The translations under genes were made by a program, and so were the position numbers. Source: a virus. From it: a stretch of 40,802 nucleotides of DNA. Where the stretch lies: the IMG/VR virus record IMGVR_UViG_3300044568_001728, positions 1 to 40,802 of that record; one strand, written 5' to 3'. Every line of letters begins with the position of its first letter. The first letter of the stretch is position 1. A model generated the notes under the pieces. The model searched no databases, had not been told where the DNA came from, and saw only the letters and a program-made list of their open reading frames with translations. Positions 1 to 40,802 of this stretch are shown one piece after another.

Positions 1-134
1 GCATGGTTAGCGAAGACATGATGGGTGGTGGCTCAATGCTCCCGCCTCGCCTCGCAGCCCGTGGTGGCGGTATGTCAATGGGCGGCGCACCAATGGGTGG
101 CGGTATGCCAATGCCATCCTCACCGATGAGCTAG
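1..134 (+). CDS. Met/Gly-rich small protein, 5'-truncated
   Basis: The window opens inside this gene; reading starts at base 3 and ends at TAG 132-134. The visible residues are rich in Gly and Met, with repeated GGGM and GAPMGGG runs. It is the end of the same gene seen complete at 39600-39848, where the N-terminal half carries a CPMCQGTG zinc-knuckle-like motif. This copy ends PSSPMS while the complete one ends PSSMS, a one-codon indel. The function is unknown. It sits in front of a basic DUF6321-like gene. Confidence 0.75.
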   Translation, partial: MVSEDMMGGGSMLPPRLAARGGGMSMGGAPMGGGMPMPSSPMS

Positions 135-136
135 TC

Positions 137-466
137 ATGGCATCGCCAGCGTGGCAACGTAAAGAAGGTCAGAACCCTTCAGGTGGACTCAACGACAAAG
201 GTCGAGCCTCGTACAAAGCACAGACTGGTGGCACTCTCAAAGCCCCGGTCAAAGGTCGCCCAACATCACCCGAACAGATGCGCCGTAAAGGCTCGTTCCT
301 GTCTCGCATGGGTGGATCGCCAGGCCCGATGAAAGACGACAAAGGTCGCCCGACCCGCAAGGCGTTAGCCCTTAAAGCCTGGGGTGCTAGCAACGAAGCC
401 GAAGCCAAATCTATGGGTCGTCGTTTACTGGAGCAGTACGCCAAGCAGAAAGCAGATAAGAAATGA
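137..466 (+). CDS. small basic protein, DUF6321-like
   Basis: A 109-residue Lys/Arg-rich protein with the pattern WQRKEGQNPSGGLN, GRASYKAQTGG, LKAPVKG, RRKGSFLSRM, DKGRPTRKALALKAWGA. I recognise this layout from DUF6321 proteins of marine and freshwater phages, recalled from memory rather than searched. The function of the family is unknown; the strong positive charge suggests nucleic-acid or virion association. The start lies two bases after the previous stop and the end overlaps the next ATG. A near-identical copy at 39851-40180 differs at residues 20-21 (DK versus AA) and near the C-terminus (D versus N). Confidence 0.8.
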   Translation: MASPAWQRKEGQNPSGGLNDKGRASYKAQTGGTLKAPVKGRPTSPEQMRRKGSFLSRMGGSPGPMKDDKGRPTRKALALKAWGASNEAEAKSMGRRLLEQYAKQKADKK

Positions 467-621
467 AAAAGCCTTTTTGGGAATCAAAGAACCCGAACAA
501 GAAGTCAAGCAAACTTGGTGCTGAGGGTATCGCCCTCGCTAAGAGCATGGCATCTAAGGCTGGCCGACCGTACCCAAACCTTGTTGACAACGCCGCAGCA
601 AGTAGAAAACTTAAGAAGTAA
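463..621 (+). CDS. 52-residue basic protein
   Basis: ATG at 463 overlaps the stop of the preceding gene (ATGA), a sign of translational coupling. The protein begins MKKPFWESKNPNKKSSKLG and has a small helical segment followed by a Lys-rich tail. No family was recognised. The right-hand copy at 40177-40338 is one residue longer (ends KLKGK, not KLKK) and is followed there by an additional gene that is missing here. Confidence 0.7.
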   Translation: MKKPFWESKNPNKKSSKLGAEGIALAKSMASKAGRPYPNLVDNAAASRKLKK

Positions 622-648
622 AGCCTGCTCACAATGTCATTTCACCCT

Positions 649-732
649 GGTGACTTGACCGAAGGTAGCCATTCAGTAAACTTGGTGTTGCCAACACAAA
701 CGTGATGTTGAAGGCTTAGAGCCTCTGTCACC
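649..732 (+). promoter_or_regulatory. structured leader upstream of lysozyme-like gene
   Basis: The gap between 621 and the ATG at 749 can fold into a closed multi-branch structure. GGTGAC (649-654) pairs with GTCACC (727-732). Inside lie GTGTT-gcc-AACAC (685-697) and AGGCT-tag-AGCCT (712-724). In the right copy (40515-40598) all three stems are intact, while the last loop changes from TAG to ACG. Stem conservation with a changed loop supports a real RNA structure. A leader that controls expression of the lytic gene is an inference. Confidence 0.45.
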
Positions 733-748
733 CTTAACAAAGGAAATT

Positions 749-1294
749 ATGCGGCAAATCACCAAAGCAATACTTATAGTTTGCGTTATGTCATCGTGCG
801 GATCGACAATGAAAGTCTCAACTGAGACACTCCCTGTTCTCCAGCTCGCACCAGTCACAACACAACCAACACTCAATGCACACGAAGCCTTACAAGCCGA
901 CCTAGCAACCACAACAACGACAACAACAGAAGTGCCGTTAGTGTCAGATCCCCTTGATTACATTGACGAATCGCGCGCAATGTACGGCAAGTGTGGTGAG
1001 TGGTACGACACGCTTATCGCTGTCGGTGGACGCGCAGAAGACTGGCCCATATGGTCACGAGTCCTGTGGACTGAATCTCGATGCCTTCCAGCACCAAACA
1101 AAACCCGTGAAGCATCCGCAGCGGCCGACTGCATTGGGTTGACACAAATATTTTTTCGGGTGCATCAAGCCTGGTTGTCGGAGTTCGGTTTCGGTAGAGA
1201 AGACCTGCTAGATCCCGTAAAAAACCTGACATTCGCTGTTGCGTTACAGAAGTCTTCGGGCTGGTCGCCGTGGGCTTATTTAAATATGCCTTGA
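749..1294 (+). CDS. lytic transglycosylase-like (lysozyme-fold) lipoprotein
   Basis: 181 residues. The N-terminus has a hydrophobic stretch ending in a lipobox-like VMSSC (Cys17), so secretion and lipid anchoring are likely. A short Thr-run linker (around residues 53-60) leads to a C-terminal domain with VLWTESRCLP (candidate catalytic Glu about residue 109), DCIGLTQI and a late SGWSPWAYL motif. This is the order found in soluble-lytic-transglycosylase/lysozyme folds: Glu, then GL.QI, then W.PW. It probably cleaves the peptidoglycan glycan strand during entry or exit. The RBS is AAAGGAAATT before the ATG. The right copy (40615 onward) is cut by the window end. Confidence 0.72.
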   Translation: MRQITKAILIVCVMSSCGSTMKVSTETLPVLQLAPVTTQPTLNAHEALQADLATTTTTTTEVPLVSDPLDYIDESRAMYGKCGEWYDTLIAVGGRAEDWPIWSRVLWTESRCLPAPNKTREASAAADCIGLTQIFFRVHQAWLSEFGFGREDLLDPVKNLTFAVALQKSSGWSPWAYLNMP

Positions 1295-6505: not shown

Positions 6506-6627
6506 ACCAACTATCGCCCGAGGAGCAACGATTCGTGGACAAAACAGTTGAAGTCATCTACTTCGCAGGACTAGCGGCAACGTGTGTCGCGATCCTGTGG
6601 TGGATCATCGGCAAGATCACGAAATAA
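6502..6627 (+). CDS. 41-residue single-pass membrane protein
   Basis: ATG at 6502 overlaps the methyltransferase stop (ATGA). Following a short charged N-terminus (NQLSPEEQRFVDK) comes one membrane segment (VIYFAGLAATCVAILWWIIG) and a KITK tail. It is the last gene of the rightward early cluster and its end overlaps the converging integrase-like gene by 11 bases. The function is unknown. Confidence 0.6.
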   Translation: MNQLSPEEQRFVDKTVEVIYFAGLAATCVAILWWIIGKITK

Positions 6628-7516
6628 CCGAGTCAGGTGCAGAACCCGACCCGAATCTGTCCCCATCAGGCTCGACCACAATCTGAGCTATGACATCAGC
6701 CTGACTAACCAGCGAAACAGGATTGAGTAGGCGCAAAGTCTGCCGAACATACCTATCGTTCGTATGGCCGAGCCACTTCGCAATCACCGGGACAGCAACA
6801 CCACGCTGAAACTGACGCTGAACAGCCCAACGACGCATATCCTGCACCGTAAGCCGACGACCAACAGCACCCGAAGCGACATCATTGATCGTCTCAGTCG
6901 CGTGCTTAGAACCAAACGTCCCACCGAGCGTAGTAGTCGCAGCGAACACCGCCGTAAGACCGAGAGTCAACACTTCAAGGCGACCGTCCACCGGGATCTC
7001 GCGCCTGTTGCCTCGACGAGAACGCACCGTGACTAGCGTCTTCCCTTCCCAAGTGCGAACATCCGTCTTACGAATCCGAAGAGCTTCAGCGCAGTCACAG
7101 CCACCCCAGGCAACCATCGCAGCGAGCCATTCCCACCGAGGCCCACGCTGAGAAAACGCTGACATGACCAGCACCATCTCATCATCGGACGGCACAGTTG
7201 AATTATCAAGCACGATGACCCGCTTCGGCATCTTCACCGAATGCAAACCGTGAACCTTCAGAACACCAGCATCGACCAGCGCATCCATCCACTTAGCGAC
7301 CCCACAAACCCGTGAAGCAACCGACGTTGATGTGTACCGAGAAGCCATCCAATCCACAAACAGTTGAGCGTTCACCGCCGTGCAATCCAGGGGATGAATG
7401 TCCACCAAGCCGCACCACCGTTGCCAAGTCATAATGTCTTTTTTGTACCGCTTACGAGTATGTATCGAGGCGTAACCCCCCAAGAAATGAGCTGTAACAG
7501 AGCGAACAGAAGCCAT
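6617..7516 (-). CDS. tyrosine-recombinase-like protein, catalytic residues altered
   Basis: 299 residues. Residues 5-90 form a core-binding SAM-like domain (TRKRYKKDIMTWQRWC, VNAQLFVDWMASR); residues 105-265 look like the catalytic domain. The residues expected for activity are mostly missing. The first Arg box (usually G-L-R-x-x-E) reads GGCDCAE, placing Asp141 where Arg should be; the HxLR box reads QDMR (His to Gln at 225, Arg228 kept); the GH pair is intact (H251); nine residues on, where the nucleophilic Tyr is expected, is Thr260. A Tyr at 256 is offset. It may be a DNA-binding relic, a regulator, or a divergent enzyme. Confidence 0.75.
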   Translation of the reverse strand: MASVRSVTAHFLGGYASIHTRKRYKKDIMTWQRWCGLVDIHPLDCTAVNAQLFVDWMASRYTSTSVASRVCGVAKWMDALVDAGVLKVHGLHSVKMPKRVIVLDNSTVPSDDEMVLVMSAFSQRGPRWEWLAAMVAWGGCDCAEALRIRKTDVRTWEGKTLVTVRSRRGNRREIPVDGRLEVLTLGLTAVFAATTTLGGTFGSKHATETINDVASGAVGRRLTVQDMRRWAVQRQFQRGVAVPVIAKWLGHTNDRYVRQTLRLLNPVSLVSQADVIAQIVVEPDGDRFGSGSAPDSVIS

Positions 7517-10611: not shown

Positions 10612-10968
10612 TCAGATCACCCCCGAAAAACATTGAGCGACCAACGAACCGTCAGGACGAACCATCAACGAGTAAACCAACTCAGCGAAATCTTCCGCAT
10701 TGCACACTTCATTCAGATCTACGTCTGAATACTCGGTGTCTGTAAACAAGCCGACCGTCTCAAAAGCCAACGATGCAAAAGCCATCTCAGGATGGAAAAA
10801 GTCCACACCCGATTGACCGTCAGTCAACCACAGCCGACCAATCTTGCCGTTAATCAATGCGCGGCACACAAGAGACTCACAGCCCCCGCCCGTGCTGGTT
10901 CGTTCCCAATAGCCACCGGTGACCGCGTTAAGTTCGCGGATCACCTCATCCACTAATTGCTGATTCAT
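10612..10968 (-). CDS. hypothetical protein, first gene of leftward operon
   Basis: 118 residues, ribosome leader AAGGGGTTCAA. An N-terminal helix (QQLVDEVIRELNAVTGGYW) is followed by strands and a LNEVCNAEDFAELVYSLMVRPDG helix. It is acidic overall. No family was recognised. It is the first gene behind the leftward promoter at 11027-11055. Confidence 0.6.
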   Translation of the reverse strand: MNQQLVDEVIRELNAVTGGYWERTSTGGGCESLVCRALINGKIGRLWLTDGQSGVDFFHPEMAFASLAFETVGLFTDTEYSDVDLNEVCNAEDFAELVYSLMVRPDGSLVAQCFSGVI

Positions 10969-10988
10969 TTGAACCCCTTATATGTTGA

Positions 10989-11010
10989 CCGCCGAAGCGG
11001 GCGAGCCCGC
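10989..11010 (-). promoter_or_regulatory. mutually exclusive hairpins in the leftward leader
   Basis: In the leader between the leftward promoter and the ATG at 10968, GCGGGC-tc-GCCCGC (11010-10997 read leftward) and CCGC-ttcg-GCGG (11000-10989) share bases, so only one can form. The second has a stable UUCG loop. There is no T run after either, so neither is a simple terminator. A switch or stability element is possible. Confidence 0.35.
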
Positions 11011-11026
11011 ACGGACTCACCCCAAC

Positions 11027-11055
11027 ATTGAACCACACCTGGCGACCATAGTCAA
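11027..11055 (-). promoter_or_regulatory. leftward operon promoter
   Basis: Read leftward: TTGACT (11055-11050), 17 bases, TTCAAT (11032-11027), matching five and four of six consensus positions at ideal spacing. The predicted transcript starts near 11020, about 50 bases before the first leftward ATG (10968). The -35 hexamer is the same as in the rightward early promoter at 1291. Confidence 0.6.
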
Positions 11056-11264
11056 GTGTTAACCCCCCCAACATCGGGACGACCAAAACCAAACCACAAA
11101 GCCCGAAATTATTCGGAGCAAGACGTGCACCGCTACCGAGTCCCTGTCGGCAAGCACGCTCACGAGACAGCGTCAGCGGGAGACCAACCGAGGAACGAGG
11201 GCGGTAGCACCCCGTGAGGAATCGCAATCCATCGCCACCGATCAGACCCCGCGCACCCAATCGG

Positions 11265-11301
11265 GTTCGGGTTCGGGATGGCCACCGATCGGAACCCGAA
11301 C
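11265..11301. repeat. 10-bp perfect inverted repeat
   Basis: GTTCGGGTTC (11265-11274) and GAACCCGAAC (11292-11301) form a ten-pair stem with a 17-base centre. The arm itself contains a tandem GTTCGG/GGTTCG motif. The stretch around it (11235-11345) also has an imperfect direct repeat beginning CCACCGATC at 11235 and 11282, and several GATCGGAACC-like units. No T run follows, so it is not a terminator. Confidence 0.5.
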
Positions 11302-11382
11302 ACCGCGCACCCCGTCGGGATCGGAACCGCCATCGGAACCCTGAACCCACCGTGCCCCGTGCCCGAACACTCGGCGCCACCG

Positions 11383-11466
11383 GTAGACCGATGTCCTAGA
11401 CCCCGCGCCTAGACCGTACCCCTAGACCGTGCGACTAGACGGCGAGACTAGACCAACAGTCTATGT
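11383..11466. repeat. 13-bp periodic CTAGAC array
   Basis: CTAGAC occurs at 11396, 11409, 11422, 11435 and 11448, exactly every 13 bp. A sixth unit, GTAGAC at 11383, and a decayed CTATGT at 11461 keep the same phase. Four of the five perfect units read CTAGACC; the remaining seven bases of each unit vary, so the motif rather than a duplicated block is kept. CTAG is normally rare in bacterial DNA. Such a phased array is expected for iterons of an origin, a terminase-binding site, or a cooperative operator. Confidence 0.75.
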
Positions 11467-12083
11467 GCCCCACCACCTACCTCGTGACCGTGCCCAGGGC
11501 CGACCGACCCCCCCGCACGCCCATTGAGGGGCCCCACCCCCCCTATCCAATTCAACCTCCCGTATTTTTTGACTTTTTTCAAAGGGTGTCCTTGCCGGGG
11601 GCTTGGCGTCTTCGACGTTGGAAGGTCAAGGGATGTTCCGCCGTTGGCGGCTAACGCCTCACCATCGCCAGCGTGGCTGTCGAAGTTCGTTGTTGTCATC
11701 CGTGTGTTGTCACATCGGTGACTTTTACGTTGTGTCAGACCTTTTGGTCTGCCCCAATGCCCTACCGTTGGCGGCCCTACACCGTACCAACTCCCGAACC
11801 TTAACGATGTTCACTCGTTTCATTATTTAACTACCTACCCACGGCTTACTGGCTGGCATCCAATTCGACTGTTGGCTTGACTCCACGCATGGGATCCGAA
11901 CCCCCTTTCAGGTCACAATGTCCCTACGCTCCTGGTTAGACAGGCTTACTACGGGCGAGTTCCGCTTGGCGTGTCATCCCGACAGGCTCAAGCTTCGTAA
12001 GTTCGGTGACATGACAATACCATGGGGCTGTATGGTGATAGTGTCAGTTTTTGTAACAGGACAAAGTTTATTTGGGAGAAGAT
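11467..12083. other. noncoding region between the CTAGAC array and the late genes
   Basis: No convincing gene on either strand. It contains a perfect GGGGCCCC palindrome near 11528, C-rich and T-rich tracts (11540-11580), a cluster of hairpins (11638-11751), an 11-bp direct repeat CCGTTGGCGGC (11641-11651 and 11765-11775), and a CCTG/CAGG hairpin near 11931-11944. A late promoter is expected here, but I found no box pair better than a weak GTGACA...TATGGT (12006-12036). A good ribosome site, GGGAGA, precedes the ATG at 12084. Confidence 0.5.
11638..11751 (+). other. cluster of three clean hairpins
   Basis: Three separate perfect stems: CCGCC-gtt-GGCGG (11638-11650), GTCAC-atcg-GTGAC followed by TTTT (11709-11726), and CAGACC-tttt-GGTCTG (11736-11751). 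They could be parts of one structured RNA or protein-binding DNA. The middle one is too short and T-poor to call a confident terminator. Confidence 0.35.
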
Positions 12084-12368
12084 ATGGCAACTGTTGATGA
12101 TTTGATGAAGACTGTTACAAGATTAGGTAACGATGCTTTGGTTGCTCAGGCTCGGTTTGCGTTGGAGTCAGCCGGGATCTTCCTAACTCCTGATATGTGT
12201 AAGGCAGCTTTTTGTGCGGCAGCGCACATTGTCGAACTTGCGGAGCGTTCTTATGACGTGAACTCGTTGACAGCAGGCGAAATGGTCGCTACGCAGTCGG
12301 TTGGTTCGCTCGCAATGCAGATTTGGGCCACCCTTCACGACCTGACATCGGGCAAAGACCTTATATGA
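12084..12368 (+). CDS. small helical protein before terminase
   Basis: 94 residues from the ATG with a GGGAGA ribosome site; an in-frame TTG 12 bases earlier sits on that site and is rejected. Helical throughout (VDDLMKTVTRLGNDALVAQ; MCKAAFCAAAHIVELAERS; VGSLAMQIWATLHDL). It is the first gene of the late cluster and its stop overlaps the next start. No family was recognised; a packaging or early assembly role is inferred from position only. Confidence 0.6.
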   Translation: MATVDDLMKTVTRLGNDALVAQARFALESAGIFLTPDMCKAAFCAAAHIVELAERSYDVNSLTAGEMVATQSVGSLAMQIWATLHDLTSGKDLI

Positions 12369-12919
12369 CGATGCGTAAAGCGTTTGATGACGCAGATGAC
12401 ATCATTGAGGGTATCAAAGGTCGCCGTCCTACCCAGTCGAAGCCCACCAAAGTGGTGGATGACTTAAATGAAGTGGTAATTATTTCTAAAGGCGAGGCTC
12501 AACAAGCCAAAAGAGCGTCCCGTGCAGCCGACATTGAAGAAGTTCGGGTCAAAAAGGTGCTGGAAAAGGAAGAACGACGCAAGTCAGCCGAACAATTGAA
12601 GATTTTAGGGCAAGATCTGCTCGCTTCAGGGGTCGCTAGTCGGGAAATACTCCCCAAGTTGGCTCAATCCATCATTGTTGACCTCGGTTTACGCCTGGTC
12701 AGCAACGAATGGGAGATTAAGTCTGCCGAAGAAGCTACTAAGGTGGCGAAGATTTGGTATGACATCCTCAGACTAGAGTCAGGCCAAGCAACAACGATCA
12801 ACGAGAACCGTACCGGGAACCCCGAAGATCGTTTGTCGCGTTTAGAAGAGTTAAGATCAGAAGCGAAAGCTCGTGTCGAGGCTGGTTTGCGAGCAATAGG
12901 GGACGGACAAAGCGGATGA
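12365..12919 (+). CDS. probable terminase small subunit
   Basis: 184 residues from the ATG that overlaps the preceding stop (ATGA). A basic, disordered N-terminal third (KGRRPTQSKPTK) leads to a charged helical segment (QQAKRASRAADIEEVRVKKVLEKEE) and a helical domain (LGQDLLASGVASREILPKLAQ; EEATKVAKIWYDILRLESGQ), ending in another charged helix. It directly overlaps the large terminase gene. Size, helical make-up and position fit a small terminase, which binds the packaging site and recruits the large subunit; no specific motif proves it. Confidence 0.55.
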   Translation: MTMRKAFDDADDIIEGIKGRRPTQSKPTKVVDDLNEVVIISKGEAQQAKRASRAADIEEVRVKKVLEKEERRKSAEQLKILGQDLLASGVASREILPKLAQSIIVDLGLRLVSNEWEIKSAEEATKVAKIWYDILRLESGQATTINENRTGNPEDRLSRLEELRSEAKARVEAGLRAIGDGQSG

Positions 12920-14487
12920 ACTTCTTGTCCGACGACGAATTCGGTCAACTCACAGGTGCAGAACAAGACGAATACCTTCGACTGCTTGAAATAGACCTAC
13001 AAGCATGGAAACTGACAGGCAACAAACGCCAGGAGAAAGCACACGCCCTCGTCAAGAAAGTTGACTGGTTGCTCTACGGTGGTGCAGCTGGTGGTGGCAA
13101 ATCCGAACTGCTCGCCTACCACGCCCACGAACTATCAGAGAAATATCCCGGTCACCGCACACTCCTAGTGCGAACCGCACTCCCCGAACTACGACGATCA
13201 CTCATCATCCGATCCCAAGTCCGATATGCCCAACTAAACGTGGATGCAGCCCTACGATCCATTGACAACGTTAAAGCCTGGTGGTACGGCAACGGATCAG
13301 TTATCGAATACGGATTCTGCGCCCGCGACGAAGATGTTGGTCAATATATGTCTGCCGAGTACGACTTCATCGGTTTCGACGAAGCAACCCAGTTCACCCC
13401 CTACCAAATGCTTATGATGTCGGGCCGACTCCGAACCAGCCGAAAAATGACTGCGCTAGGCGTAAGAACCCACGTTATGTTCGCAACCAACCCTGGCGAC
13501 CGTGGGCATACATTCCTATACAAAATGCTGGTACAACCCACCCAACACGGCAAATACGCTGTTGTCTACGATGTGCGCGACGGATTTGAGAATCCCGAAG
13601 TAGTACGCCGAGTCGAACTTCCCGACGACCCAGCAGAGATAGACAAACTAGAAATACCCCACGACCCCACCGACCACCTCATCGTCGCGTTCGTACCGTC
13701 AACTGTGGACGACAACCCCCACATTGACCCCACATACCGCAAGCACCTATCCATGCTCCCCGAAACAGAACGCAAACAAAAACTGTTAGGCGACTGGGAT
13801 ACCTTCACCGGGCAATACTTCTCCGAATTCAACAGAGAAACCCACGTCATACCACCATTTGAAATCCCAGCAGAATGGCCCCGCTACCGAGGAATCGACT
13901 TCGGAACAGCAAACCCCTACTGCTGTCTATGGGGAGCCTGGGATCCAGCCGACGGAACCTGCTACGTCTACCGAGAGGCATACCAAAAAAACCTCACCGC
14001 AGCACAACAAGCCATGCAAATCAAAGAAATGTCCAAAACCACCGACGGCAAAAACGAACGCATCACCGCCACCGTCATCGACCCATCCACCTACAGCAAC
14101 GTCCAAGGCTTAGGACAAACCGTCGCAGGTGTATACAACTCATTAGGAGTCTCCACCAGCCGAGCCAAAAACGCCCGTATCTCAGGATGGCAAAACGTCC
14201 ACCGCTACCTGCAACCAGGCGTTATCAACGATGAGCCAAAATTAAAAATTTTCTCTACTTGCGAGCATCTGCTCCGCACCCTGCCCGCGATGCGCCACGA
14301 CAAAACCAAAGTTGAAGACGTAGACACCGACGACGAAGACCATGCAGTAGACGCACTCCGATATCTGCTAGCCTGCCGTCCGTACAATGAAATCACCCGC
14401 AAACATAAACACGCCACATATGATGCAGAGGGTAGAGTACAAAGGTTCATGGAGAAGTTGGACAAAACAAAAAAGCGGAGATGGTAA
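12916..14487 (+). CDS. terL: terminase large subunit
   Basis: 523 residues. ATPase domain: Walker A GGAAGGGKS (55-63), Walker B FIGFDEATQ (about 151-159), then a coupling-type FATNPGD motif. Nuclease domain: GIDFGTANP (about 325-333), ATVIDPSTY (about 385) and DEDHAVDALRY (near 476), giving the acidic triad of the RNase H-like fold. It pumps DNA into the procapsid with ATP and cuts the concatemer. The start overlaps the upstream stop (ATGA). Confidence 0.95.
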   Translation: MNFLSDDEFGQLTGAEQDEYLRLLEIDLQAWKLTGNKRQEKAHALVKKVDWLLYGGAAGGGKSELLAYHAHELSEKYPGHRTLLVRTALPELRRSLIIRSQVRYAQLNVDAALRSIDNVKAWWYGNGSVIEYGFCARDEDVGQYMSAEYDFIGFDEATQFTPYQMLMMSGRLRTSRKMTALGVRTHVMFATNPGDRGHTFLYKMLVQPTQHGKYAVVYDVRDGFENPEVVRRVELPDDPAEIDKLEIPHDPTDHLIVAFVPSTVDDNPHIDPTYRKHLSMLPETERKQKLLGDWDTFTGQYFSEFNRETHVIPPFEIPAEWPRYRGIDFGTANPYCCLWGAWDPADGTCYVYREAYQKNLTAAQQAMQIKEMSKTTDGKNERITATVIDPSTYSNVQGLGQTVAGVYNSLGVSTSRAKNARISGWQNVHRYLQPGVINDEPKLKIFSTCEHLLRTLPAMRHDKTKVEDVDTDDEDHAVDALRYLLACRPYNEITRKHKHATYDAEGRVQRFMEKLDKTKKRRW

Positions 14488-23527: not shown

Positions 23528-24235
23528 ATGGACGAACAAATGTTAAAAGGGATACCAAAATTCCTTATCAAAATAATTGGGTCAAACGATCATAAAGGTT
23601 TTTTCGCTTTTACCCAGTTTGCCAAACCAGCAACATTTTTACATGAAACAGACGAAGACAAACGCTGTGATTACAACGCCCCACGAATAGCTCGTGGCTT
23701 TCACCATTGGAACGCCGAAACAAACCTATGCTCCTGCGGGTCGTCGGACGAACCCAATCGACTAACTGGTGGGCATTGGACGTTTGACGAAATGACAGCA
23801 CTATTCCCCGCACTTGACGCTTACCCGGCGGGCATGATCGTTTACATGGAACTGGAATGGTCGCCCGAACGAGAAGCAATGGAAGCACAAAACTTTCATA
23901 AAAACAGAGCAACGAACTTAACCCGCACCCTTCAGGAGCAATTTCGGTTGTTAATTGAATGGGAGTATGCACACAAATATTTAGGCAATGACGAAGAAAT
24001 GGCTGTCTGCGCCACAGAAATTCTTGAAGTCCTAGATCTGCCACCTTCTATAAGACAATGGATTCTTGACAATGTTCCTAACGAAAAAGTCAACAGGTTC
24101 TTGGAAGGCAGAATAGATGCCCAGCAAAGAGCAGACATTGAAACAATCCCTAATTTGACAGACGAATTCAAAGAATGGATCGTAACTAAATTCAGACAAA
24201 CCAAATCTTTTGGTGAACACGGAGTCGAATTATAA
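23528..24235 (+). CDS. unknown protein, tandem paralogue A
   Basis: 235 residues. It shares with the next gene: RCDYN, A.GFH, C.CG..EPN.LTG.H, LF...DAYPAG, TRTLQEQFR.LIEWEYAHK, CATEILE.LD and NEKVNRFLEGR.DA. The two Cys plus conserved His could bind a metal. The C-terminal half is helical. No family was recognised. Its place between the tail fibre and an oxygenase suggests tail-linked or adsorption-linked roles, or a fibre chaperone. Confidence 0.65.
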   Translation: MDEQMLKGIPKFLIKIIGSNDHKGFFAFTQFAKPATFLHETDEDKRCDYNAPRIARGFHHWNAETNLCSCGSSDEPNRLTGGHWTFDEMTALFPALDAYPAGMIVYMELEWSPEREAMEAQNFHKNRATNLTRTLQEQFRLLIEWEYAHKYLGNDEEMAVCATEILEVLDLPPSIRQWILDNVPNEKVNRFLEGRIDAQQRADIETIPNLTDEFKEWIVTKFRQTKSFGEHGVEL

Positions 24236-24903
24236 TGTCAATTGGAAATCCATTTGGCGACCACGAGGGTTATCTAAAAACCATCAACAACACCGACAAT
24301 AAAGGTATGTTCATAACTGCAATATTTGACGACCCTAAAACTTTTATGAATGGATATGATTTCAAAAACCGTTGTGATTACAACTCCCGTAAAGCAGCTC
24401 ACGGTTTTCATAAATTTGCGAATGGCATTTGTAACTGCGGGCTTGCTGTTGAGCCAAACAACCTGACAGGCAACCATTTCTCACTAGAAGATATATCGGC
24501 CTTATTTAATGTGGTAGACGCTTACCCGGCGGGAGCAATTCTTTACATTGAATTAAACAACGAAGAAGATTTCTATCTGACCCAACGTGGAAACACCCTG
24601 ACACGCACACTTCAGGAACAATTCAGATTCCTAATCGAATGGGAGTACGCCCACAAACATCTTGACAACTCCGAGGAAATAGCTATTTGTGCTACGGAAA
24701 TATTAGAGATTTTAGATATGCCCGCCGACATCAAAGAATGGATTCTGAATTCCGTTCCCAACGAAAAAGTAAACAGATTTCTAGAAGGTAGAACGGATGC
24801 CCTTCAAAGAACACAAGAGGCAATCCCCGATCTGACAGAAGAATTTAAGGAATGGCTATTAAACCAATTCAAACAAGCTAAGAACTTTGGCGAACATGAG
24901 TAA
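24235..24903 (+). CDS. unknown protein, tandem paralogue B
   Basis: 222 residues, overlapping the end of paralogue A by one base (TAATG). It is a clear duplicate of A along its whole length, with best-kept blocks LTRTLQEQFR, NEKVNRFLEGR and LTEEFKEW. A has about 13 extra residues, partly before the TRTLQEQF block. Such a tandem pair implies a recent duplication and divergence, often selected in host-range modules. Confidence 0.65.
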   Translation: MSIGNPFGDHEGYLKTINNTDNKGMFITAIFDDPKTFMNGYDFKNRCDYNSRKAAHGFHKFANGICNCGLAVEPNNLTGNHFSLEDISALFNVVDAYPAGAILYIELNNEEDFYLTQRGNTLTRTLQEQFRFLIEWEYAHKHLDNSEEIAICATEILEILDMPADIKEWILNSVPNEKVNRFLEGRTDALQRTQEAIPDLTEEFKEWLLNQFKQAKNFGEHE

Positions 24904-39599: not shown

Positions 39600-39848
39600 A
39601 TGAACCCAATGAATGGTAACCCACTCTCAAATTTAGCTTCACAAATGGCTGGCGGTGGCGGTATGCCGATGGGTGGCGAATCAGAAATGATGCCGTGTCC
39701 CATGTGCCAAGGTACTGGCATGGTTAGCGAAGACATGATGGGTGGTGGCTCAATGCTCCCGCCTCGCCTCGCAGCCCGTGGTGGCGGTATGTCAATGGGC
39801 GGCGCACCAATGGGTGGCGGTATGCCAATGCCCTCGTCAATGAGCTAG
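39600..39848 (+). CDS. Met/Gly-rich protein with CPMCQGTG zinc knuckle
   Basis: 82 residues. Very rich in Met and Gly (MAGGGGMPMGGE; GGGMSMGGAPMGGG). A single CPMCQGTG motif (about residues 33-40) matches one half of a DnaJ-type CxxCxGxG zinc site, so zinc binding would need dimerisation. The end of this gene recurs at 1-134. Confidence 0.65.
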   Translation: MNPMNGNPLSNLASQMAGGGGMPMGGESEMMPCPMCQGTGMVSEDMMGGGSMLPPRLAARGGGMSMGGAPMGGGMPMPSSMS

Positions 39849-39850
39849 CC

Positions 39851-40180
39851 ATGGCATCGCCAGCGTGGCAACGTAAAGAAGGTCAGAACCCTTCAGGTGG
39901 ACTCAACGCTGCTGGTCGAGCGTCGTATAAAGCACAGACTGGTGGCACTCTCAAAGCCCCGGTCAAAGGTCGCCCAACATCACCCGAACAGATGCGCCGT
40001 AAAGGTTCGTTCTTGTCGCGTATGGGTGGATCGCCAGGCCCGATGAAAGACGATAAGGGTCGCCCGACTCGCAAGGCTTTAGCGTTAAAAGCATGGGGTG
40101 CTAGCAACGAAGCCGAAGCCAAATCTATGGGTCGTCGTTTACTGGAGCAGTACGCCAAACAGAAAGCGAACAAGAAATGA
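39851..40180 (+). CDS. small basic protein, DUF6321-like (second copy)
   Basis: 109 residues, almost identical to the gene at 137-466, with GLNAAGRAS in place of GLNDKGRAS and KANKK in place of KADKK at the end. Many nucleotide differences are silent, which points to selection on the protein. Function unknown; strongly basic. Confidence 0.8.
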   Translation: MASPAWQRKEGQNPSGGLNAAGRASYKAQTGGTLKAPVKGRPTSPEQMRRKGSFLSRMGGSPGPMKDDKGRPTRKALALKAWGASNEAEAKSMGRRLLEQYAKQKANKK

Positions 40181-40338
40181 AAAAGCCTTTTTGGGAATCA
40201 AAGAATCCGAACAAGAAGTCAAGCAAACTTGGTGCTGAGGGTATCGCTCTTGCTAAGAGCATGGCATCTAAGGCTGGTCGACCGTATCCGAACCTTGTTG
40301 ACAACGCAGCAGCTAGCCGAAAGCTTAAAGGTAAATGA
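40177..40338 (+). CDS. 53-residue basic protein (second copy)
   Basis: Matches the gene at 463-621 except at the end (KLKGK versus KLKK). ATG overlaps the preceding stop (ATGA), and its own stop overlaps the next ATG in the same way. Confidence 0.7.
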   Translation: MKKPFWESKNPNKKSSKLGAEGIALAKSMASKAGRPYPNLVDNAAASRKLKGK

Positions 40339-40487
40339 TGAAACCAAATCCTAAAAAAGTTGGCCTTGTAATGCGCGAATTCAAAAGCGGTGGTTTGCAT
40401 TCAGGCAAAGGTGGCAAAGTCGTCACCAATCCTAAGCAGGCTCTCGCTATCGCACTCTCAGAAGCGAACATTAAACAGAAGAAGTAA
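40335..40487 (+). CDS. 50-residue DUF6496-like protein, absent from left copy
   Basis: Two in-frame ATGs at the start; the first overlaps the preceding stop. The sequence has VMREFKSGGLHSGKGGKV then NPKQALAIALSEA, matching the DUF6496 pattern as I recall it (MREFK.G.L.SG....V....QAIAIALSEA), found in many phages and bacteria. Function of the family unknown. In the left copy of the overlap the whole gene is missing and the flanking genes are joined. Confidence 0.7.
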   Translation: MMKPNPKKVGLVMREFKSGGLHSGKGGKVVTNPKQALAIALSEANIKQKK

Positions 40488-40514
40488 CCCCTGCTCACAA
40501 CGTCATTTCGCCCC

Positions 40515-40598
40515 GGTGACTTGACCGAAGGTGACCATTCAGTAAACTTGGTGTTGCCAACACAAACGTGATGTCGAAGGCTACGAGCCTCTGTCACC
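40515..40598 (+). promoter_or_regulatory. structured leader, second copy
   Basis: Same fold as 649-732: closing stem GGTGAC (40515-40520) / GTCACC (40593-40598), the inner GTGTT-gcc-AACAC stem, and AGGCT-acg-AGCCT (40578-40590). The last loop differs from the left copy while the stem is kept. Confidence 0.45.
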
Positions 40599-40614
40599 CT
40601 TAACAAAGGAAATT

Positions 40615-40802
40615 ATGCGGCAAATCACCAAAGCAATAATTATTATTTGCGTTTTGTCATCGTGCGGATCGACAATGAAAGTCTCAACCGAGACGCTCCC
40701 TGTTCTCCAGCTCGCACCAGTCACAACACAACCAACACTCAATGCACACGAAGCCTTACAAGCCGACCTAGCAACCACAACAACGACAACAACAGAAGTG
40801 CC
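40615..40802 (+). CDS. lysozyme-like lipoprotein, 3'-truncated second copy
   Basis: The first 62 codons of the gene seen complete at 749-1294, cut by the window end. Changes in the signal region (IIIICVLSSC here, ILIVCVMSSC there) keep the hydrophobic stretch and the lipobox Cys. Confidence 0.75.
   Translation, partial: MRQITKAIIIICVLSSCGSTMKVSTETLPVLQLAPVTTQPTLNAHEALQADLATTTTTTTEV

Follow-up and report, generated by a model that had tools for sequence, protein, structure and literature searches.

What reads a phased array of short hexamers that sits in a ~1.1 kb noncoding stretch between the leftward and late operons of a freshwater actinobacterial phage, and for what purpose? The first-pass annotation of the window, by which we mean the whole 40,802-nucleotide stretch analysed here, had described five CTAGAC hexamers in strict 13-bp steps and named an iteron origin, a terminase site and a cooperative operator as candidates. 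The five copies are indeed present on the + strand, at 11396, 11409, 11422, 11435 and 11448 (span 11396-11453), and the GTAGAC at 11383 and the decayed CTATGT at 11461 lie in phase exactly as claimed (Table 1). This is the longest phased hexamer run both in the whole window and in the noncoding part 10969-12086. In 2000 dinucleotide-preserving shuffles of that noncoding part, the longest run was 2 (1986 times) or 3 (14 times), and shuffles of the whole window (n=60) likewise gave 2 or 3.

The annotation had also held that the spacers vary while motif and period are kept. The hexamer and the period are fixed, but the spacers are non-random, and across relatives the unit reads CTAGACCGnnnGn. An inverted half-site caps the right edge of the array, and relatives have AGTCTG, AGTCCA or AGTATG at that position. 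A check for CTAGAC elsewhere in the window, which the annotation had proposed, gave a divided answer: the hexamer is over-represented (29 versus 9.7 expected), yet among the 16 + strand copies that lie beyond the array, 15 are CTA-GAC (Leu-Asp) codons read in frame within listed genes, the remaining one (28807) falling outside listed genes. Thus, the excess elsewhere reflects codon usage and does not represent further sites.

The array lies ~415 bp from the start of the leftward gene and >600 bp from the first late gene, a small coding sequence that is followed by a 198-aa protein and then by the terminase large subunit (TerL). PHROGs and Pfam scans of the main window proteins recovered structural genes, RecT, RusA, WhiB, a tyrosine recombinase and a C5 methyltransferase. 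To the right of the array, the core of the leader (11761-11956) is retained in distant relatives as well as close ones. The leader (11583-12083) had no match in Rfam, and we rejected it as a covarying RNA because changes affecting both partners are seen in just 2 of its 28 predicted pairs. Rfam and tRNA scans of the whole window gave no match at gathering thresholds, and below-threshold Rfam hits to mir-541 and isrB were dismissed as chance or hairpin effects. A blastn search of the array region against cultured phages returned no match.

Table 1. Features of the window around the phased array, in order of position.
Feature	Position	Strand	Basis
First gene of the leftward operon, 118 aa, without family match	10612..10968	-	PHROGs/Pfam scans
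Left motif GTCGGCAAGCA, possible left limit of the variable module	11146..11156	+	Kept in relatives with and without array
13-bp phased array: GTAGAC, 5 x CTAGAC, decayed CTATGT; unit CTAGACCGnnnGn	11383..11466	+	Read from sequence, shuffles, unit profile
Last direct unit plus inverted half-site, CTAGAC-CAACA-GTCTAT (CTAGAC-N5-GTCTAT), capping the right edge	11448..11464	.	Sequence; similar in relatives
GC-rich segment separating array from boundary	11503..11546	+	Sequence, relatives
Conserved right boundary CTCCCGTATTTTTTG (11557), then AT-rich tract (11563-11582)	11557..11582	+	Conserved in relatives; analogous to Beephvirinae terminal-repeat end
Noncoding leader (~500 nt), kept in close relatives	11583..12083	+	Sequence comparison
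Leader palindrome GTCACATCGGTGAC = GTCAC-ATCG-GTGAC	11709-11722	within leader	Sequence
198-aa protein immediately before TerL; candidate small terminase from its position only, without family match	12323..12919	+	PHROGs/Pfam scans
Terminase large subunit (TerL)	12916..14487	+	PHROGs/Pfam scans

Among close relatives (group A1), 13 checked loci, the window included, carry an array of 3 to 8 units (3, 6 or 8). In 12 of these 13 array-bearing loci the rightmost unit lies 109-111 bp before the boundary CTCCCGTATTTTT; in the exception (L020) it lies 120 bp before it and is followed by a decayed CTATAC unit. The right edge of the array is fixed in A1, with additional units placed leftward. The first-pass annotation had counted related genomes with the same flanking genes and no periodic motif as evidence against its reading, and such genomes exist: in L004, L006 and L023 both boundary and left motif are retained and TerL is 98-100% identical, but there are zero TAGAC units. 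The array is therefore dispensable or replaceable, not universal. No recognised substitute cassette was found in these three loci, and no DnaA boxes were seen in the array slot of group A. Searches that require exact CTAGAC overlook decayed arrays. In a distant relative (L042:1-210), many CTCGAC/TCGA repeats occupy the slot of the window's CTAGAC array, as judged by eye.

We scanned viral contigs for three CTAGAC at period 13 and obtained 39 stretches. Part of them are trivial tandem repeats, a second part comes from A1, and a third set makes up what we call family B (array carriers L087, L088, L091, L095, L098, L104, L105, L113 and L118, plus copies). This set has no blastn similarity to the window, yet its array lies upstream of a terminase of 619-620 aa. 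The family B TerL is 43% identical to that of Streptomyces Beephvirinae (Immanuel3, Percastrophe and relatives) and ~46% identical to that of E7 and F5, isolated phages of 'Ca. Planktophila' (PMC10202952). By blastp, A1 and B share almost no other proteins. Unit profiles built separately for A1 (37 units) and B (33 units) nevertheless agree: TAGAC is invariant, and both show preferences for C before it, CG after it (C6, G7) and G11.

A neutral minisatellite without function might be expected to differ in copy number among close relatives, as the array does; however, the hexamer and the period are fixed while the spacers diverge, the unit recurs in an otherwise unrelated family at a like place, and the right edge is fixed. 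We regard a minisatellite as very improbable. The extended unit in two phage families, together with the fixed boundary distance and the variable copy number, makes a protein-binding array well supported; that a protein does bind is what we infer from these features.

Outside these phages, three CTAGAC at period 13 occurred in 0 of 396 genomes of the phylum to which an Actinomycetota MAG belongs, and a scan of genome contigs for TAGAC arrays gave, among the matches listed, mostly near-identical tandem repeats unlike the phage array. In Actinoallomurus chromosomes (L167, L184, L202), TTAGACC units preceded by TGG recur every 13 bp. We rejected these as kin of the phage array; they resemble tandem TGGTCTAGACCA-type operators (DasR sites), by half-site only. 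We found no description of the phage cassette in the open-access papers searched.

The family B slot can be compared with the genome ends of cultured phages. Records of Immanuel3, FlowerPower, WRightOn and Stella have exact direct terminal repeats of 253-275 bp, that of FlowerPower having been reported as 253 bp (PMC9753666), and the Abafar record has one of 396 bp. Searches with a profile built from the B boundary recover E7 and F5 (E about 6e-4 and 9e-4); among five Beephvirinae, the matches are confined to Immanuel3. Two of the Immanuel3 matches are collinear and fall exactly across the end of the terminal repeat and on the CRP-like site that follows, but they are weak (E 0.84 and 0.44, single-strand search). 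This weak alignment and the shared gene order lend moderate support to a B module that would sit at the right end of the direct terminal repeat. Because the same profile does not match the window, a genome end at the window's own boundary would be placed there by analogy only. On this genome-end reading, the terminal repeat would end at CTCCCG in A and near TACTCCCC in B, which would put the array at the genome end. The Beephvirinae repeats (Immanuel3, FlowerPower, WRightOn) also hold several ATGTCC hexamers, but they have no CTAGAC array, the ATGTCC spacing is irregular, and the link to the window region is by analogy. In the Immanuel3 repeat itself (L240:1-275), some of these irregularly spaced ATGTCC hexamers are close to Streptomyces-type DnaA boxes.

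Contig edges also cluster at this place. Of 48 B contig edges within 4 kb of TerL, 20 fall 300-600 bp upstream, where 3.6 are expected; the interval was chosen post hoc, so p = 7e-11 is too small. Several A contigs begin at the boundary. We did not accept such edges as proof of a physical genome end, since left-side contigs have no mirror cluster, and the clustering could also stem from assembly breaks at a border between conserved and strain-variable sequence. Exact terminal overlaps of 113-127 bp were likewise rejected as genome ends because they resemble assembler k-mer overlaps. The two ends of the window (1-936 and 39718-40802) are 93-95% identical over ~0.95 kb, with a gap, so that instead of bearing an exact terminal repeat the record appears to be a circular genome of ~39.7 kb that was closed using the sequences of two strains. 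In one contig (G022:C1:40180-40683), the leader is inverted before TerL at the contig end, which is either an assembly artefact or a real inversion.

The array could be a packaging signal, that is, a recognition array for the terminase small subunit in the manner of the lambda cosB R sites or the short repeats at T7 ends. Its position upstream of the terminase in both families, the alignment of the B module with the Immanuel3 repeat end and the contig edges all fit such a signal, although the edges are open to the assembly explanation above. The terminases themselves do not fit: TerL is nearly invariant between A1 phages that have the array and those that lack it, and the candidate small terminase is 94-97% identical in array-less G018 and G006.

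The family B slot bears further on this question, as it holds different cassettes in different phages: a CTAGAC array, DnaA boxes (TTATCCACA), a TAGACA/TGTCTA inverted repeat, or others. Family B was sampled as the best 80 of >600 contigs together with contigs found through a second gene. Among 45 distinct B modules, 18 have DnaA boxes, 12 the CTAGAC array and 9 an inverted TAGACA...TGTCTA pair; the rest comprise 3 with the inverted pair plus GTCTCAC-N3-GTGAGAC and 3 others. An enlarged set of B loci has 26 DnaA, 15 array, 14 inverted-repeat and 18 other cassettes, and the 62 rows of our TerL tree are labelled 25 DnaA, 11 array, 14 inverted repeat and 12 other, the last being a catch-all. The class rules differ slightly among these three counts, those for the 45 modules were written after the modules had been read, and the class definitions and boundary patterns were fixed while viewing the data. 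The distance from the first site to the boundary is similar in all three main classes, with medians of 102 bp (array), 104 bp (DnaA) and 100.5 bp (inverted repeat). In the DnaA cassettes, perfect TTATCCACA boxes follow one another in tandem, often at a spacing of 12-13 bp, and in G027, G028 and G031 paired boxes lie inside the module while at most two other perfect boxes occur per genome. The slot of isolate E7 holds TTAGACATA-N9-TATGTCTAA, a form of the inverted-repeat cassette.

On the best 62-row TerL tree, the four cassette labels need 21 changes, and sister TerL proteins are accompanied by different cassettes. Well-supported branches alone force at least 10 changes for DnaA, at least 10 for the inverted repeat and at least 3 for the array. 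At the same time, the labels cluster on the tree more than in shuffles. Many changes combined with residual clustering indicate that cassettes are inherited for a time and then exchanged. The motif does not follow the terminase, and DnaA boxes in the slot would be unexpected for a terminase site, which leaves a packaging signal unlikely. Near-identical TerL with and without the array, together with cassette exchange, argue against a TerL-specific site and for a protein-docking array. These comparisons make it probable that the array is a docking site, open to exchange, at which a sequence-specific DNA-binding protein would bind.

DnaA boxes in the same B slot suggest the recruitment of an initiator and hence an origin-like function. 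We favour, with a probability of about 40%, a replication-initiation docking cassette near the genome end. The array units would be direct sites for a DNA-binding protein, ~110 bp left of the conserved boundary; in family B, the matching slot would lie just inside the predicted direct terminal repeat at the genome end. An initiator, supplied by the host or by an unrecognised phage gene, would occupy neighbouring units in several copies beside an AT-rich tract; for its reader, the CTAGAC array would be what DnaA boxes are for DnaA in sister phages. By eye, an AT-rich tract lies ~100 bp from the array in the window, and AACAAAAAATATTTGCTAAAG is seen in B. DnaA-box origin clusters resemble the array in having short directional sites, several copies ~12-13 bp apart, an AT-rich tract nearby and, in other family B phages, the very same slot; they differ in motif (TTATCCACA in place of CTAGACCGnnnGn), and initiation by the array is a proposal.

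Other observations temper the origin-like function. The annotation had recognised no replication initiator, and our PHROGs and Pfam scans bear this out: no polymerase, primase, helicase or initiator is among the main window proteins. An origin would thus need a host or unrecognised initiator. The array shares with plasmid and phage iterons (lambda ori, P1 oriR) a series of phased direct repeats for an initiator. In contrast, typical iterons are near 17-22 bp, while the array has a core of only 6 bp and a period of 13 bp, and the scanned window proteins, a set that leaves small ORFs aside, include no Rep-type or other iteron-binding initiator. Neither GC skew nor third-position skew switches at the array, as a bidirectional origin would predict; a flat skew would leave room for a unidirectional or rarely used one. 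DnaA can also double as a transcription factor, so DnaA boxes are no proof of an origin.

This last point leads to the main rival of an origin, a transcriptional operator. A host or phage regulator would bind the array cooperatively and control the leftward operon, the late leader promoter or both, with operators exchanged along with their regulators. Like cooperative operator arrays of phage regulators, the array consists of repeated short sites in a divergent region, here between the leftward genes and the late leader, and the existence of several cassettes, inverted repeats among them, fits regulator exchange. The surroundings look regulatory, with the GTCAC-N4-GTGAC palindrome in A and CRP-like TGTGA-N6-TCACA sites behind the boundary in family B and Beephvirinae. 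However, a scan limited to sigma-70-type promoters found no match in the region, the array stands hundreds of base pairs from the genes on either side, DnaA boxes are among the alternative cassettes, and, among the handful of B genomes compared, no regulator gene of the phage goes with the cassette. We consider an operator possible but less than probable. Among the candidates first put forward, the origin thus gains from the B DnaA boxes, the operator keeps its place and the terminase site is weakened by the TerL comparisons.

A broader proposal, which we hold to be doubtful, gives actinobacterial phages a modular cassette for initiator docking close to the genome end, with DnaA boxes traded for CTAGACCGnnnGn arrays of a second initiator or DnaA-like factor. 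If true, origin specificity would be swapped like a cassette, abundant freshwater phages would have a cis-site where host DnaA and another factor replace each other, and the phage's choice of replication initiator (or regulator) would become directly testable. Since E7 and F5 are isolates and E7 has an inverted-repeat cassette, tests in culture are possible.

The identity of the reader was approached through gene content. The annotation had suggested the WhiB-like or recombinase-like protein, neither of which gains support: L023/G006 encodes copies 96% and 98% identical to these without an array, and at the blastp level the compared B genomes have neither in common with the window. What the window shares with the compared B genomes are small widespread proteins and, in some, the C5 methyltransferase, which we rejected as an array-linked gene because it occurs in non-array genomes too. 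No gene convincingly tracks the cassette among 12 B genomes, only two of which are array-bearing. The reader may be a host protein with single sites or a small unrecognised phage protein.

The recombinase also raises the prospect that the array represents integrase arm-type sites of an attP, since the window encodes a tyrosine recombinase (6617-7516) and the arm-type sites of integrases such as those of lambda and L5 can be short direct repeats. The near-identical recombinase of array-less L023/G006 means that the array does not accompany the integrase; the gene is also ~4 kb from the array, and none of the compared B genomes shares it at the blastp level, although B has the array. An attP function is hardly credible on these grounds. 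Elsewhere in the window, 23921-24219 and 24601-24896 are 71% identical, probably a duplicated late gene.
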